NCBI GenBank assembly: GCA_022824945.1
Contig: JAJDYX010000005.1
Coordinates: 62,001-126,000, forward strand
Direction: 5' to 3'
DNA from: Candidatus Latescibacterota bacterium
GTDB lineage: Bacteria; Latescibacterota; UBA2968
Length of the DNA: 64,000 nucleotides
Positions 59,492 through 64,000 of the stretch are shown here, piece after piece. The position numbers and the translations under genes are program-made. Each line of letters starts with the position of its first letter. The first letter of the stretch is position 1. The notes beneath the pieces are model-generated. The model saw nothing but the letters and a program-made list of their open reading frames with translations, had not been told where the DNA came from and searched no databases.

Positions 59492-61468
59492 CTACCACCC
59501 GTGAACAGAATGCCCTTCTTCTGGGAAAAAGGTAAAATCCACAACAGAAGACACACCCACGCCGACGACATAACCGATCACAAGGCCAAAGAACAAAGGA
59601 ATACAGCGCCGATAGAGCGAAATGCCACCAATGCGCAGAATAATGAGTTTGGACGCCCATGTCAGAAAAATACTGAAGGCATAGACCCGGGACCCCTGCA
59701 TCCTTTGAAAAGCCAGACCCAGGGGATGCAAGGGCCACCACGGGACGCGATTGCGAAGAAGCATAAGCAGACCCGCTTGCCCAAGTCCAAAAACCCAGAC
59801 CGATATTTTGCCGGGATCAAAAACCGTTTTATCTGCGCCGACAATAGCGGAAACCATGCGGTCGTACGTGCGAATATTGGACCCGCTAAAACCCGACAGC
59901 CCCAGATTCTGACCCGCGTAATTATATCCCAAATGCACAATAAAAAGACACGATCCGAAAAACCCCGAAGCAAAAGCCAGCAGAACGACCCAGAAAACCC
60001 ATCGGCGGCGGACATCATTCCCCAAAAGTTTGAGGTGATGGGGCAGCGCGGGCCATGCGGGAATGCGCGAATTGCCAAAAAATGCACTCGAATTGATCAC
60101 ACCCAGAGCAACGGTATTTTGTTGCGTAAGCGTTGCCGTCCCCGTAAAAATCTCGACAATCTGTCCCCCCTTGCCTCCAACCGGAAAAAGATAAGAAAAG
60201 CCACTCGCCGCGGTATATTTTGCCACAGTAAAATACGCTGCATAAAGCAATAAAAGATGGAAAAGGGCGAGAAAAGGCGACAGACCCACTGCGACGAACC
60301 AGCCAAAAACAAAAATAGTCGCTGCAATAAAACCGAGTAGTGCTAAACGATAAGATACCAGACCATCATCTGCTCCTCCTGTCACAGCGGCCCGAAGAAC
60401 ATGTCGCAAATGGTCTCGCGCGACCCATACCGCCCACAAAGCCAAAAAGATGAAAGCACCATGAGATTCTAAAATCAGAATCTCACTCGCCTCTGCCTGT
60501 TGCCCGGCAAGACCCACATTAAATCCCGTGCGAGCCATCACCCCTTCTTTGACAATAGCGATGAGACGAAAAGCCCAGAAACTGAAGAGGATGTCCAGAT
60601 TACACATATAAGTAAGCCCCAAAACAGGAGGCAAAATACGCAAATAAAACGATGGAAAATTGCGCGCAATGGGCACCTCTTTGGTCAGATAACCGTCGTA
60701 AATGCCAATTCGAGGCAAACTGATGGCAAAATAACCGAGAATATTCCAGGCAAAAACACCGAAAACAACAAAAAACCCTACCCAGAAGAGCTTATTCCGA
60801 AAAATACCGGGTATAACGCGGCCCGGTTCATCAAACCCCTCGGTCAATGCAATGGGAAAAGCTGCAAGTGGAAAAGTGAGACGCTCGTTCTCCTCCCATT
60901 GCTTTTGAAAAATGACCGCAAGGCATAATCCAGCAACAACAAGAGCAATAGACACGGCGAACCACCAGTGCAGTGAAGCCAGCCATCCGCGCCAGGGAAT
61001 GCTCGCGCCATCGGGAAGGCCCTCGTAATACGTGCGAATAATCTCAGGCGTTGCCTGCGGCAAACACCACCACGGCAAAAAGTCAAAAAGGACCTCTTCC
61101 CATCGATTTTCGGGCGAAGCATAATAAAACGGCGTACTGACAATGCCGCCCCAATAGGTCGTCCACCCACTTGCCGAAACCGTGCCCACAATCCACGACA
61201 TGCTGTAAATAACCAGAAGCTCTGTACTGCGCAAAGCCATGCGCGGCCATGCGAGCTTTAGAATGAGATTGATCACGAGCCACGCGACAAAGGGCAAGAG
61301 CATGGCCATAGACAATTGCGACTTAACCAGCGAAGCAGACCCCAAAATCATGCCCGTGTAATCGCTGTAAATATTGAGCAACGCCGCAGTGATCGTACCC
61401 AGAATAATGGACCGGATGGTAATACGCCGCGGGCGCGCAGGTTCGGGTTGTGGTTGTGCAAGTGCCAT
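59492..61468 (-). CDS. DUF6784/DUF6785-type polytopic membrane protein, second copy
   Basis: A 658-residue membrane protein with about 14 hydrophobic segments. It is a clear homologue of the protein at 1629-3635: RSTELLVIYSMSWIVGT, PFYYASPENRWEE, EGLPDGASIPWRGW, KQWEENERLTFPLAAFP and the FFPEEGHSVHGW tail. Here it stands alone, 5 bases before the IMPACT gene and not beside sugar-acid enzymes. A transporter is likely from topology only. The start is uncertain because no good ribosome-binding site precedes ATG 61468. Confidence 0.75.
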   Translation of the reverse strand: MALAQPQPEPARPRRITIRSIILGTITAALLNIYSDYTGMILGSASLVKSQLSMAMLLPFVAWLVINLILKLAWPRMALRSTELLVIYSMSWIVGTVSASGWTTYWGGIVSTPFYYASPENRWEEVLFDFLPWWCLPQATPEIIRTYYEGLPDGASIPWRGWLASLHWWFAVSIALVVAGLCLAVIFQKQWEENERLTFPLAAFPIALTEGFDEPGRVIPGIFRNKLFWVGFFVVFGVFAWNILGYFAISLPRIGIYDGYLTKEVPIARNFPSFYLRILPPVLGLTYMCNLDILFSFWAFRLIAIVKEGVMARTGFNVGLAGQQAEASEILILESHGAFIFLALWAVWVARDHLRHVLRAAVTGGADDGLVSYRLALLGFIAATIFVFGWFVAVGLSPFLALFHLLLLYAAYFTVAKYTAASGFSYLFPVGGKGGQIVEIFTGTATLTQQNTVALGVINSSAFFGNSRIPAWPALPHHLKLLGNDVRRRWVFWVVLLAFASGFFGSCLFIVHLGYNYAGQNLGLSGFSGSNIRTYDRMVSAIVGADKTVFDPGKISVWVFGLGQAGLLMLLRNRVPWWPLHPLGLAFQRMQGSRVYAFSIFLTWASKLIILRIGGISLYRRCIPLFFGLVIGYVVGVGVSSVVDFTFFPEEGHSVHGW

Positions 61469-61634
61469 AAGACTGTGAAAGATAATGTTTAAGTATCCAA
61501 TGATATTCTGAGTAATGATATATTGCGCATTTGTCAAGAAGGTATTGTATCGGATTATTTATAGAGGTGATTACCTTTTTTTTAAATGCTTGTAAAACCT
61601 ATATTTTTTTTCTTCCCTAAAAACGCGACATGTT

Positions 61635-61894: not shown

Positions 61895-63313
61895 ATGAGC
61901 ACACACAGCTTAATAGCCGTGGTAAAACAGGACTGCCCGACCTGTGCTCTCATCGCACCCGTGCTCAGACAAATTGGAAAGCGGGACGAATCACTCGCCG
62001 TTTACACCCAGGACAATCCCAATTTTCCCGCGGGAATTGCAAACCTTATTGACGACACCGGTCTGGAACAATCGTATCGTCTCAATATCGAAACCGTACC
62101 AACCCTCCTCCGTTTTGAAAAAGGGCGAGAAGTAGCGCGGACTGTTGGATGGCATCGCGGCGACTGGGAAACCGTATCGGGACTCAACCCCCTCGGCGCA
62201 GACCTGCCCGAATCGCGACCGGGATGCGGATCAAAAAGCATCGAACCGGGCATAGCTGAAAAACTCGCCGTCCAATTTGGCGAAACCGCACTCGCCGCCC
62301 GGCGCATTGAAGTCGGCTCTCTCGAAGACGAAATAGAAACCTGTTTTGAACGCGGCTGGAGCGATGGCTTGCCCGTCGTGCCACCCACCGAAGAACGCGT
62401 ATTGCGCATGCTATCGGGAACAACCCGCTCCCCCGACGAATTGGTAGGTATTGTCCCCCCCAATTACAACAAATGCACCGTAGAAAAAGTCGCCATCAAC
62501 GCTGTCCTCGCCGGATGCAAACCCGAATATCTCCCCGTCGTCCTCACAGCGGTTGAAACCGCACTCACAGAGGCCTTTTGCATGCACGGACTGCTCGCCA
62601 CCACATTCTTTGCCGGACCCCTGATCGTCGTCAACGGACCGATCACACGCGAAATTGGCATGAATGCGCGGGTCAATGCGCTCGGGCAGGGCAACCGCGC
62701 CAACGCGACCATTGGACGCGCCCTTCAACTCGTCATCCGCAACATCGGCGGCGGCATCCCCGGTGGCATTGATCGCGCCATGCTCGGCAACCCGGGCAAA
62801 TACACCTTCTGCTTTGCCGAACGCGAAGACGATTCGCCCTGGGAATCCCTCGCTGTCGAAAGGGGATTTTCACCCGACGCCTCCACAGTCTCGCTCTTTG
62901 CAGCCAGCGGCGTCACCCCCATCATGGATCAGACATCCCGAGATCCCGACGCACTGTGTCGATCCTTCGCCGCCTGCCTCAAAGCCGACGGTCATCCCAA
63001 ACACGCAAACAGCCCGCCTCCCGTACTGGTCATATCGCCAGAACACACCCGCCGATACGCAGACGCAGGCTGGTCAAAAACCCGATTCCGCGACACATTA
63101 AATCAGTACCTCCAACTCCCCGTCGCAGAACTGCTCGAAGGCGCGGGCGGCATCCCCGAAGGGATTTCAAAACAGCGGACAAAAGACACACTACCCAAAT
63201 TTCGCAACAACACCTTGCACATCGTCCGCGCAGGCGGAGACGCGGGCTTATTCTCTGCCCTCATCAGCAGTTGGGGCAGCAGCCAATCCCTCACAAAGGA
63301 GATCACGCCATGA
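61895..63313 (+). CDS. Thioredoxin-like protein with large C-terminal domain, partner of a UGSC selenoprotein
   Basis: A 472-residue protein. N-terminal thioredoxin-fold domain (about 1-90) has a CxxC at DCPTCA and the cis-Pro region TVPTLLRFEKG. The remainder (about 140-472) is a domain of unknown function with Gly- and Asn-rich loops (NARVNALGQGNRANATIGR, NIGGGIPGGIDRAMLGN) and conserved-looking Cys. GGAAGG precedes the ATG. Its TGA overlaps the start of the UGSC selenoprotein gene (ATGA), so the two are made together. The Cys pair may reduce the selenocysteine site. Confidence 0.8.
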   Translation: MSTHSLIAVVKQDCPTCALIAPVLRQIGKRDESLAVYTQDNPNFPAGIANLIDDTGLEQSYRLNIETVPTLLRFEKGREVARTVGWHRGDWETVSGLNPLGADLPESRPGCGSKSIEPGIAEKLAVQFGETALAARRIEVGSLEDEIETCFERGWSDGLPVVPPTEERVLRMLSGTTRSPDELVGIVPPNYNKCTVEKVAINAVLAGCKPEYLPVVLTAVETALTEAFCMHGLLATTFFAGPLIVVNGPITREIGMNARVNALGQGNRANATIGRALQLVIRNIGGGIPGGIDRAMLGNPGKYTFCFAEREDDSPWESLAVERGFSPDASTVSLFAASGVTPIMDQTSRDPDALCRSFAACLKADGHPKHANSPPPVLVISPEHTRRYADAGWSKTRFRDTLNQYLQLPVAELLEGAGGIPEGISKQRTKDTLPKFRNNTLHIVRAGGDAGLFSALISSWGSSQSLTKEITP

Positions 63314-63819
63314 AATTGCTCGACCCCACATCTGAGCAAAAACCAGCACAAAGAGAACGGGTAAAACGCCCGCAATCACTCGACGGACTGACCATCGGGC
63401 TTCTCGACATATCCAAAAGCCGGGGCGACGTATTCCTCGACCGCATCGAAACGCATCTCGCGCAACGCAACCTCAAAGTCAACCGCTACATCAAACCCAC
63501 ATTCACGCGCCCGGCACCCATCGCACTCCAGCAACAAATCGCCACCGAATGCGATGTCGTCGTCGAAGGCTTAGCCGATTGAGGGTCTTGCACAACGTGC
63601 AGTGTGCACGACACGACCAACCTGGAAACACGCGGCATACCCACCGTCTTTGTCGCATCCGAGCCGTTCCGCGAAGCAGCCGATGCCCAATCAACCGCCC
63701 TGGGATTTAATCCCGCTCGCGTCTTTGTAGGCCATCCCATCCAGGATCGCACCGACGAAGAAATGCAGGCACTTGCCGATGGTGCTATCGAACGCATCTT
63801 GAAAAGAATTAGCAGATAA
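63310..63819 (+). CDS. UGSC-family selenoprotein (UGA 63580-63582 read as selenocysteine)
   Basis: A 169-residue protein if UGA codon 91 is read as Sec. Upstream (MKLLDPTSEQK ... DVVVEGLAD) and downstream (GSCTTCSVHDTTNLE ... LKRISR, TAA at 63817) are in one frame and both fit one domain, with the site reading D-U-GSCTTCSVHD. This is the U-G-S-C motif for which the family is named. A hairpin follows the UGA (see the SECIS entry). Ordinary gene finding would split the gene at 63582. Neighbours are a thioredoxin-like protein and MsrB, so redox chemistry is likely; the reaction is unknown. Confidence 0.9.
63580..63616 (+). promoter_or_regulatory. Bacterial SECIS-like hairpin after the Sec UGA
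   Basis: CGTGC (63596-63600) pairs with GCACG (63606-63610) around the loop AGTGT, and the flanking GGTC/GACC can form a lower stem. The loop begins 18 bases after the UGA and contains G followed by U, close to the layout of the E. coli fdhF element. SelB would bind this loop to insert selenocysteine. Confidence 0.7.
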
Positions 63820-63837: not shown

Positions 63838-64000
63838 ATGAACGACAAAAAAATCACCAAAACAAACGAAGAATGGCGGGAACAACTCACGCCCGAGCAA
63901 TACTACGTCTGCCGTCAAAAAGGCACGGAACGCGCCTTCACCGGCATGTACTGGGACTGCCGAGAAGAAGGCGTATATCGCTGTGTATGCTGCAACGCCG
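63838..64000 (+). CDS. msrB: Peptide-methionine (R)-S-oxide reductase MsrB, N-terminal part
   Basis: The window ends after 54 codons. [32 protein letters not shown] and [10 protein letters not shown] are the SelR/MsrB start, with the first zinc CxxC at CVCC. The catalytic Cys or Sec lies beyond the window. Starts 18 bases after the selenoprotein stop. MsrB reduces methionine-R-sulfoxide and is itself a selenoprotein in some organisms. Confidence 0.9.

Follow-up and report, generated by a model that had tools for sequence, protein, structure and literature searches.

Near the end of the window, by which we mean the whole stretch of 64,000 nucleotides analysed here, two genes overlap on the forward strand, and the second of them is interrupted by a TGA codon in frame. 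The locus thus raises two questions: is this TGA read as selenocysteine (Sec), and what might the two gene products do together?

Decoding of the in-frame TGA

The frame at 63310-63819 (+) has a single TGA (63580-63582) as its sole interruption and ends with a TAA stop. Read through, it encodes 169 residues with Sec at position 91 in the motif D-U-GSCTTCSVHD, where U91-G-S-C94 agrees with the pattern of the UGSC family, Sec or Cys followed by G-S-C. Cys94 (63589-63591), invariant in 60 of 60 aligned sequences, is a candidate resolving cysteine of this UxxC motif. The whole protein matched NF041046, 'UGSC family (seleno)protein', with 156.3 bits (curated cut-off 125 bits) and PF24696 with an E-value of 4.7e-44. 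Residues 1-90 and residues 92-169, each searched alone, also matched PF24696 (E 1.4e-16 and 8e-19, respectively). Since both halves match separately, the frame is no chance open frame, and the proposal of the first-pass annotation that one UGSC gene runs across the TGA was confirmed. The same annotation expected such a gene to be split by standard procedures, as is indeed seen for the homologue in Paracoccus ferrooxidans, which stands in its record as two 'hypothetical proteins'. One UGSC copy was found in the window's genome, and none was found in the viral contigs searched.

UGSC is listed as a selenoprotein family in PMC2398784, PMC9312934 and PMC13188914. It counted among the commonest selenoproteins of aquatic metagenomes, with 255 sequences in the GOS study (PMC2398784), and for a 2026 review it is still one of the selenoproteins whose function is largely uncharacterised (PMC13188914). 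The window protein is the same as the family (NF041046/PF24696) throughout, in its full-length match, UGSC motif and Sec, and is a plain added member.

The first-pass annotation had further implied a selenium-utilising organism, and selA, selB, selD and a tRNA-Sec gene are all present in the window's genome (5.49 Mb in 57 contigs, 98% complete, 6% contamination). The adjoining selA and selB on contig C52 scored 576 and 391 bits (cut-offs 268 and 242). selD scored 371 bits (cut-off 125) and carries an in-frame TGA of its own (CGGUASK; G000:C29:6223-7344, locus L014), and the tRNA-Sec gene is adjacent to it on C29. This tRNA gene reached 73 bits with RF01852 (gathering score 47) and was identified by ARAGORN as tRNA-Sec with the anticodon TCA. 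A second, weaker RF01852 match in the genome, of 48 bits, was just above the gathering score. Because the model is unspecific near that score, where 5 of 14 control genomes pass, the case for tRNA-Sec rests on the 73-bit score and on ARAGORN.

The same codon was observed widely in relatives. The UGSC family is present in 17 of the 64 phylum-set genomes, with exactly one TGA in every one of the 17 matches, so that a read error, named as a possible refutation in the first-pass annotation, is excluded. A scan of genome contigs with the partner protein, the product of the upstream gene, gave at least 585 loci, of which the best 80 were kept; these are the nearest partners found, and co-occurrence figures there describe near relatives. 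TGA was found at the site in 74 of the 80 loci, belonging to several phyla (75 sites, one locus having two), and TAG in two, Blastococcus L059 and Geodermatophilus L120. One further UGSC gene, in L054, is cut by the contig end. Four genomes were searched with the Rfam tRNA-Sec model, and each gave a single strong match. The tRNA-Sec anticodon is CTA in both TAG-bearing Geodermatophilaceae genomes and TCA in the three others read, the window's included. The pairing of TAG with a CUA tRNA-Sec is independent evidence for Sec at the site. UAG-encoded UGSC proteins in Geodermatophilaceae have already been reported (PMC5330540), and L059 and L120 show the same combination again. Two tRNA genes were scored as tRNA-Sec by Rfam with 65 and 64 bits.

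A second sample consisted of 296 genomes from the phylum of a Pseudonocardia genome (G066), itself among the genomes of the 80 loci. UGSC matched in 24 of them, with 36 matches, of which 30 loci were fetched and 28 resolved; for the weak matches L176 and L177 the local models gave no hit. The resolved sites were TGA (23), Cys (4) and Met (1). In an alignment of 133 rows, window included and rows short or gapped at the site left out, we counted 113 TGA, 2 TAG, 15 Cys and 3 Met. The expectation that homologues hold either Sec or Cys was thus borne out except for the three Met rows, a site with neither residue being among the refutations that the first-pass annotation had named. A quick tree of these rows, with some long branches, gave at least four Sec/Cys changes on well-supported branches and nine by parsimony. 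Such repeated exchange argues that the two residues are interchangeable here, as expected for a catalytic position. Met was confined to one clade of three rows, all fused proteins far from the window gene. These UGSC-partner fusions (L048, L049 and L175) have Met-Gly-Thr-Ser replacing Sec-Gly-Ser-Cys, and this branch seems to have lost the redox pair. Aconitase X genes were observed near Met-type fusions in Sporomusa and Vibrio.

Directly after the TGA lies a bacterial SECIS-like element (63583-63618, +), with an upper stem at 63596-63601/63605-63610, computed as six pairs, a loop at 63602-63604 and a lower stem at 63584-63587/63615-63618. The hairpin CGTGC/AGTGT/GCACG described earlier from the letters is present at 63596-63610, its loop following after 18 bases. 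For the test we folded the 42 bases after the codon and required 4 or more stem pairs and a loop 14-22 bases in; the shuffles kept the protein and used local codon usage. Of 200 synonymous shuffles made from this stretch of the window, 5% gave such a hairpin (energy z -1.9). It was found in 73 of 78 sequences vs 21.0 expected from the shuffles, the 78 being the window with the 75 TGA and 2 TAG sites, which are related and not 78 independent tests. The folding energy was under the shuffle mean in 77 of the 78 (mean z -2.0). The serine codon at the loop was AGT in 62 of 62 cases, whereas over the rest of these genes AGT makes up 37 of 496 serine codons. A hairpin forced by the protein sequence was therefore ruled out by the shuffles and the AGT bias, and the SECIS-like element of the first-pass annotation stands beyond coding constraint. 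Three of 72 distinct sequences have A-T for G-C at one stem pair, both sides being changed, and in Acidovorax and Paracoccus a Trp codon TGG takes the place of the Cys codon, with GTC as the Val codon and the stem kept. Of 10 Cys homologues 3 have the hairpin, compared with all three additional Sec rows, of which two are identical; a Variovorax boronicumulans row, placed on the wrong motif, was left out of the Cys count. Among genus and family relatives the predicted structure contained it in 10 of 11, L024 folding otherwise.

From these sequence data we concluded that the UGA of the second operon gene is almost certainly decoded as Sec91 under the SECIS hairpin that begins directly behind it. 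That the TGA might be a genuine stop, the scar of a pseudogene or the result of a sequencing error, with the downstream half not translated together with the first, is what the mechanical list of open reading frames suggests by ending at this codon, but it is highly improbable given its recurrence in every family-bearing genome of the phylum set and in most partner loci, the family match of both halves, and the presence of SECIS and Sec machinery.

The partner gene and its pairing with UGSC

The gene directly upstream (61895-63313, +) encodes a partner protein of 472 residues, and its stop overlaps the UGSC start in an ATGA (63310-63313), so that the two are probably translationally coupled. 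An N-terminal thioredoxin domain (61895-62185) contains Cys14-Pro-Thr-Cys17, of which C14, T16 and C17 are invariant in 56 of 56 aligned sequences. It is followed by Cys111 in the stretch RPGCGS, encoded here by TGC (62225-62227), and by a conserved C-terminal domain (62300-63292, residues approx. 136-466), for which no match in Pfam or NCBIfam was found.

A UGSC match was found near 77 of the 80 partner loci, the misframed row of L036 having been left out of the profile behind this count. In 72 of the 77 the UGSC site lies 200-700 nt after the partner stop; in five it is farther off or inverted. Three of the 80 loci lack a UGSC match: L071 ends at a contig edge inside the UGSC start, while the fetched stretches of L127 and L128 have room for the gene and gave no match. 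The same was observed in Haladaptatus L145, where the stretch fetched has a partner gene and no UGSC match. Seen from the UGSC side, the partner was present beside 27 of the 28 loci of the second sample and beside all 13 plasmid hits. Fusions of UGSC and partner occur both with Sec (L035) and with Cys (Neorhizobium and Variovorax). UGSC and the partner thus form a two-gene operon in which the partner is the regular companion; the gene association is observed, physical contact of the proteins inferred. In PMC2398784 an 'Unknown_1' domain fused to UGSC is described, which is probably the C-terminal domain of the partner. There it is a fusion partner, whereas here it mostly sits in an upstream gene of its own, together with a thioredoxin domain.

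The wider neighbourhoods vary among UGSC loci and none names a substrate. Among nine annotated plasmid loci, trxA and/or trxB were found near three (Arthrobacter, Variovorax and Roseovarius), where the partners have no thioredoxin domain, and no trx genes at the other six. CoA transferase, CoA ester lyase and TRAP transporter genes lie near UGSC in Halorientalis and Haladaptatus, a weak hint towards organic acids or their CoA esters. In the window a methionine sulphoxide reductase B gene (SelR domain, PF01641; no in-frame TGA) follows directly downstream of UGSC at 63838-64000 and continues into L012:5838-6245. Past the window end there is an open reading frame of 3227 residues with repeated segments (L012:6281-15964), and a large DUF6785/DUF6784 protein is encoded at 59495-61537 on the minus strand.

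In three betaproteobacterial metagenome-assembled genomes the codon of partner Cys111 is itself TGA (L085:5338-5340, L109:5923-5925 and L124:5920-5922). These partners are 73-78% identical, the thioredoxin domain is in frame upstream of the TGA, and the UGSC of all three loci also has Sec. Against NCBIfam and Pfam they gave weak thioredoxin matches and scattered weak others, and no model there put a name to the protein. A stretch shared by all three can form a bulged hairpin, its structure chosen post hoc after the sequences had been seen, with the loop 21-26 bases after the TGA. All seven pairs are possible in the three TGA cases; of 34 Cys orthologues that the motif search picked up, none reaches seven; synonymous shuffles do so in 0.8-2.7%. 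The folding energies are unremarkable (z -0.35, -1.22 and 0.58), and the form is the lowest-energy fold only in L085. When 369 genomes from the class to which a Pseudohongiella genome belongs were searched with the partner profile, the 10 matches (in 6 genomes) included no additional TGA case. Judged by the sequences, the TGA-type partner in betaproteobacteria is a probable second, undescribed selenoprotein. The TGA at this position in relatives suggests that Cys111 is a redox residue between thioredoxin and UGSC.

Predicted fold and possible remote relatives of UGSC

The predicted model of UGSC consists of five alternating strand-helix units (pLDDT 94.6). In thioredoxin the order is beta-alpha-beta-alpha-beta-beta-alpha, and since the model shows another strand-helix order a thioredoxin fold was rejected on this prediction. 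UGSC thus appears to be flavodoxin-like and not thioredoxin-like as had been proposed in PMC2398784. Neither structure comparison had a thioredoxin among its 50 listed rows, which alone excludes nothing, and TM-scores in one comparison were at most 0.53 among the matches listed.

Profile comparison pointed elsewhere. PrdB and GrdB are the Sec subunits of proline and glycine reductase, which carry out reductive cleavage of a small electrophile. With hhalign, UGSC and a PrdB profile of nine rows were aligned over approx. 75 columns, Sec on Sec, with 92.9% and an E-value of 3.7e-7. In the controls 200 column shuffles reached at most 0.9%, masking of the motif left 80.3%, and 22 other families from the same loci reached at most 5.4%. 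The link falls with narrower UGSC profiles, to 26.6% for the 60-sequence alignment and 18.0% for 11 near rows, and UGSC against two GrdB-like rows gave 31.7%. The window protein searched against Pfam at E 5 matched PF24696 only, and not PF07355; GRDB was absent among the 25 families listed for 60 UGSC members. In 185 genomes from the class that includes the Pseudohongiella genome, PF07355 gave two matches, neither over the cut-off, and the PrdB profile therefore stayed at nine rows. Searches of solved structures by sequence gave none convincing for UGSC, partner or PrdB; weak matches were 2ohh (E 0.006 over 43 positions) and, for the PrdB profile, a designed protein (E 1.3e-5, no stretch passing alone). 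On the alignment PrdB and GrdB look like remote relatives of UGSC. The partner showed no sign of being PrdA or GrdE, with 0.1% against two PrdA rows and 0.1% against one GrdE-like row, profiles as small as that.

Two genomes of the window's class contain a PrdB-like gene with an in-frame TGA (VPIUPNC), at L041:1453-2280 and as a near copy on the minus strand of L040; the gene is split in the list of open reading frames. A PrdB-like protein is also encoded at 804-1385 of MT838886.1, a 4.8 kb record named 'Bacteriophage sp.'.

A candidate reaction and comparison with known systems

Taken as a whole, we favour with moderate confidence a thioredoxin-fed, two-protein, selenium-dependent reductase as the best explanation of this operon. 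For the reaction itself we propose a mechanism to which we give an even chance. The Sec91 selenolate, placed in the model just before a helix of the flavodoxin-like domain, would attack or reduce a small electrophile bound jointly with the partner domain. Afterwards the oxidised Sec91-Cys94 pair would be re-reduced by the CxxC of the partner thioredoxin, perhaps through Cys111. Electrons might in this way pass from NADPH via thioredoxin reductase to the partner thioredoxin, perhaps to Cys/Sec111, and on to Sec91-Cys94 and the substrate, which by analogy with PrdB/GrdB could be reductively cleaved. What the comparisons support directly are the gene pair, the fusions, the partner thioredoxin, the Sec/Cys exchange and the SECIS element; the electron route is an inference.

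The UxxC motif, the thioredoxin domain of the partner and the adjoining methionine sulphoxide reductase B gene would also fit UGSC as a general thiol-disulphide oxidoreductase or peroxidase, thioredoxin-like as in PMC2398784, with protein thiols and not a small molecule as its substrate. We consider this unlikely, with about one chance in a few, as the model has five strand-helix units and no thioredoxin appeared among the 50 rows listed; the pair also contains a second domain that is large and conserved, and some lineages repeatedly have genes for CoA esters and acid transport in the vicinity. We gave clearly less weight to a role of the partner domain as the enzyme, e.g. a hydro-lyase-like organic-acid enzyme, with UGSC only maintaining or activating it. 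Foldseek, run with the partner model, did list fumarate hydratases among its weak top matches (7xky_A, E 1.5e-3), but the TM-score was 0.24, the profile comparison with 20 PF05681 proteins gave 0.3%, and in L035, a fused relative, the two near-invariant Cys of the partner C-terminal domain are both missing. A class I fumarase was rejected on the weak structural match and the PF05681 value.

The thioredoxin-fed reductase remains our preferred reading. The family and its UAG form are already in print, and what is added here are the regularity of the partner, the PrdB link, the fold model and the Sec of the partner, none of which was found in the UGSC passages of the literature consulted. A regular partner with thioredoxin, the PrdB/GrdB link and a second Sec make the function of UGSC testable by enzyme assay.

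Among known systems there is a likeness to PrdB/GrdB (PF07355, TIGR04483, TIGR01917). Both have a UxxC motif (UGTC in clostridial PrdB rows) followed by an E..GIPT stretch, and in the profile alignment Sec falls on Sec and Cys on Cys. Unlike in those reductases, the UGSC partner resembles neither PrdA nor the GrdE-like protein, as far as the small profiles tell, no pyruvoyl subunit was seen in these comparisons, and a thioredoxin is fused to the partner. Tentatively, and at somewhat less than even chance, UGSC and its partner might be a widespread non-clostridial counterpart of the Stickland reductases: thioredoxin-fused and two-subunit, with a Sec domain that shares an ancestor with PrdB/GrdB and a partner that is itself an undescribed selenoprotein in some betaproteobacteria.
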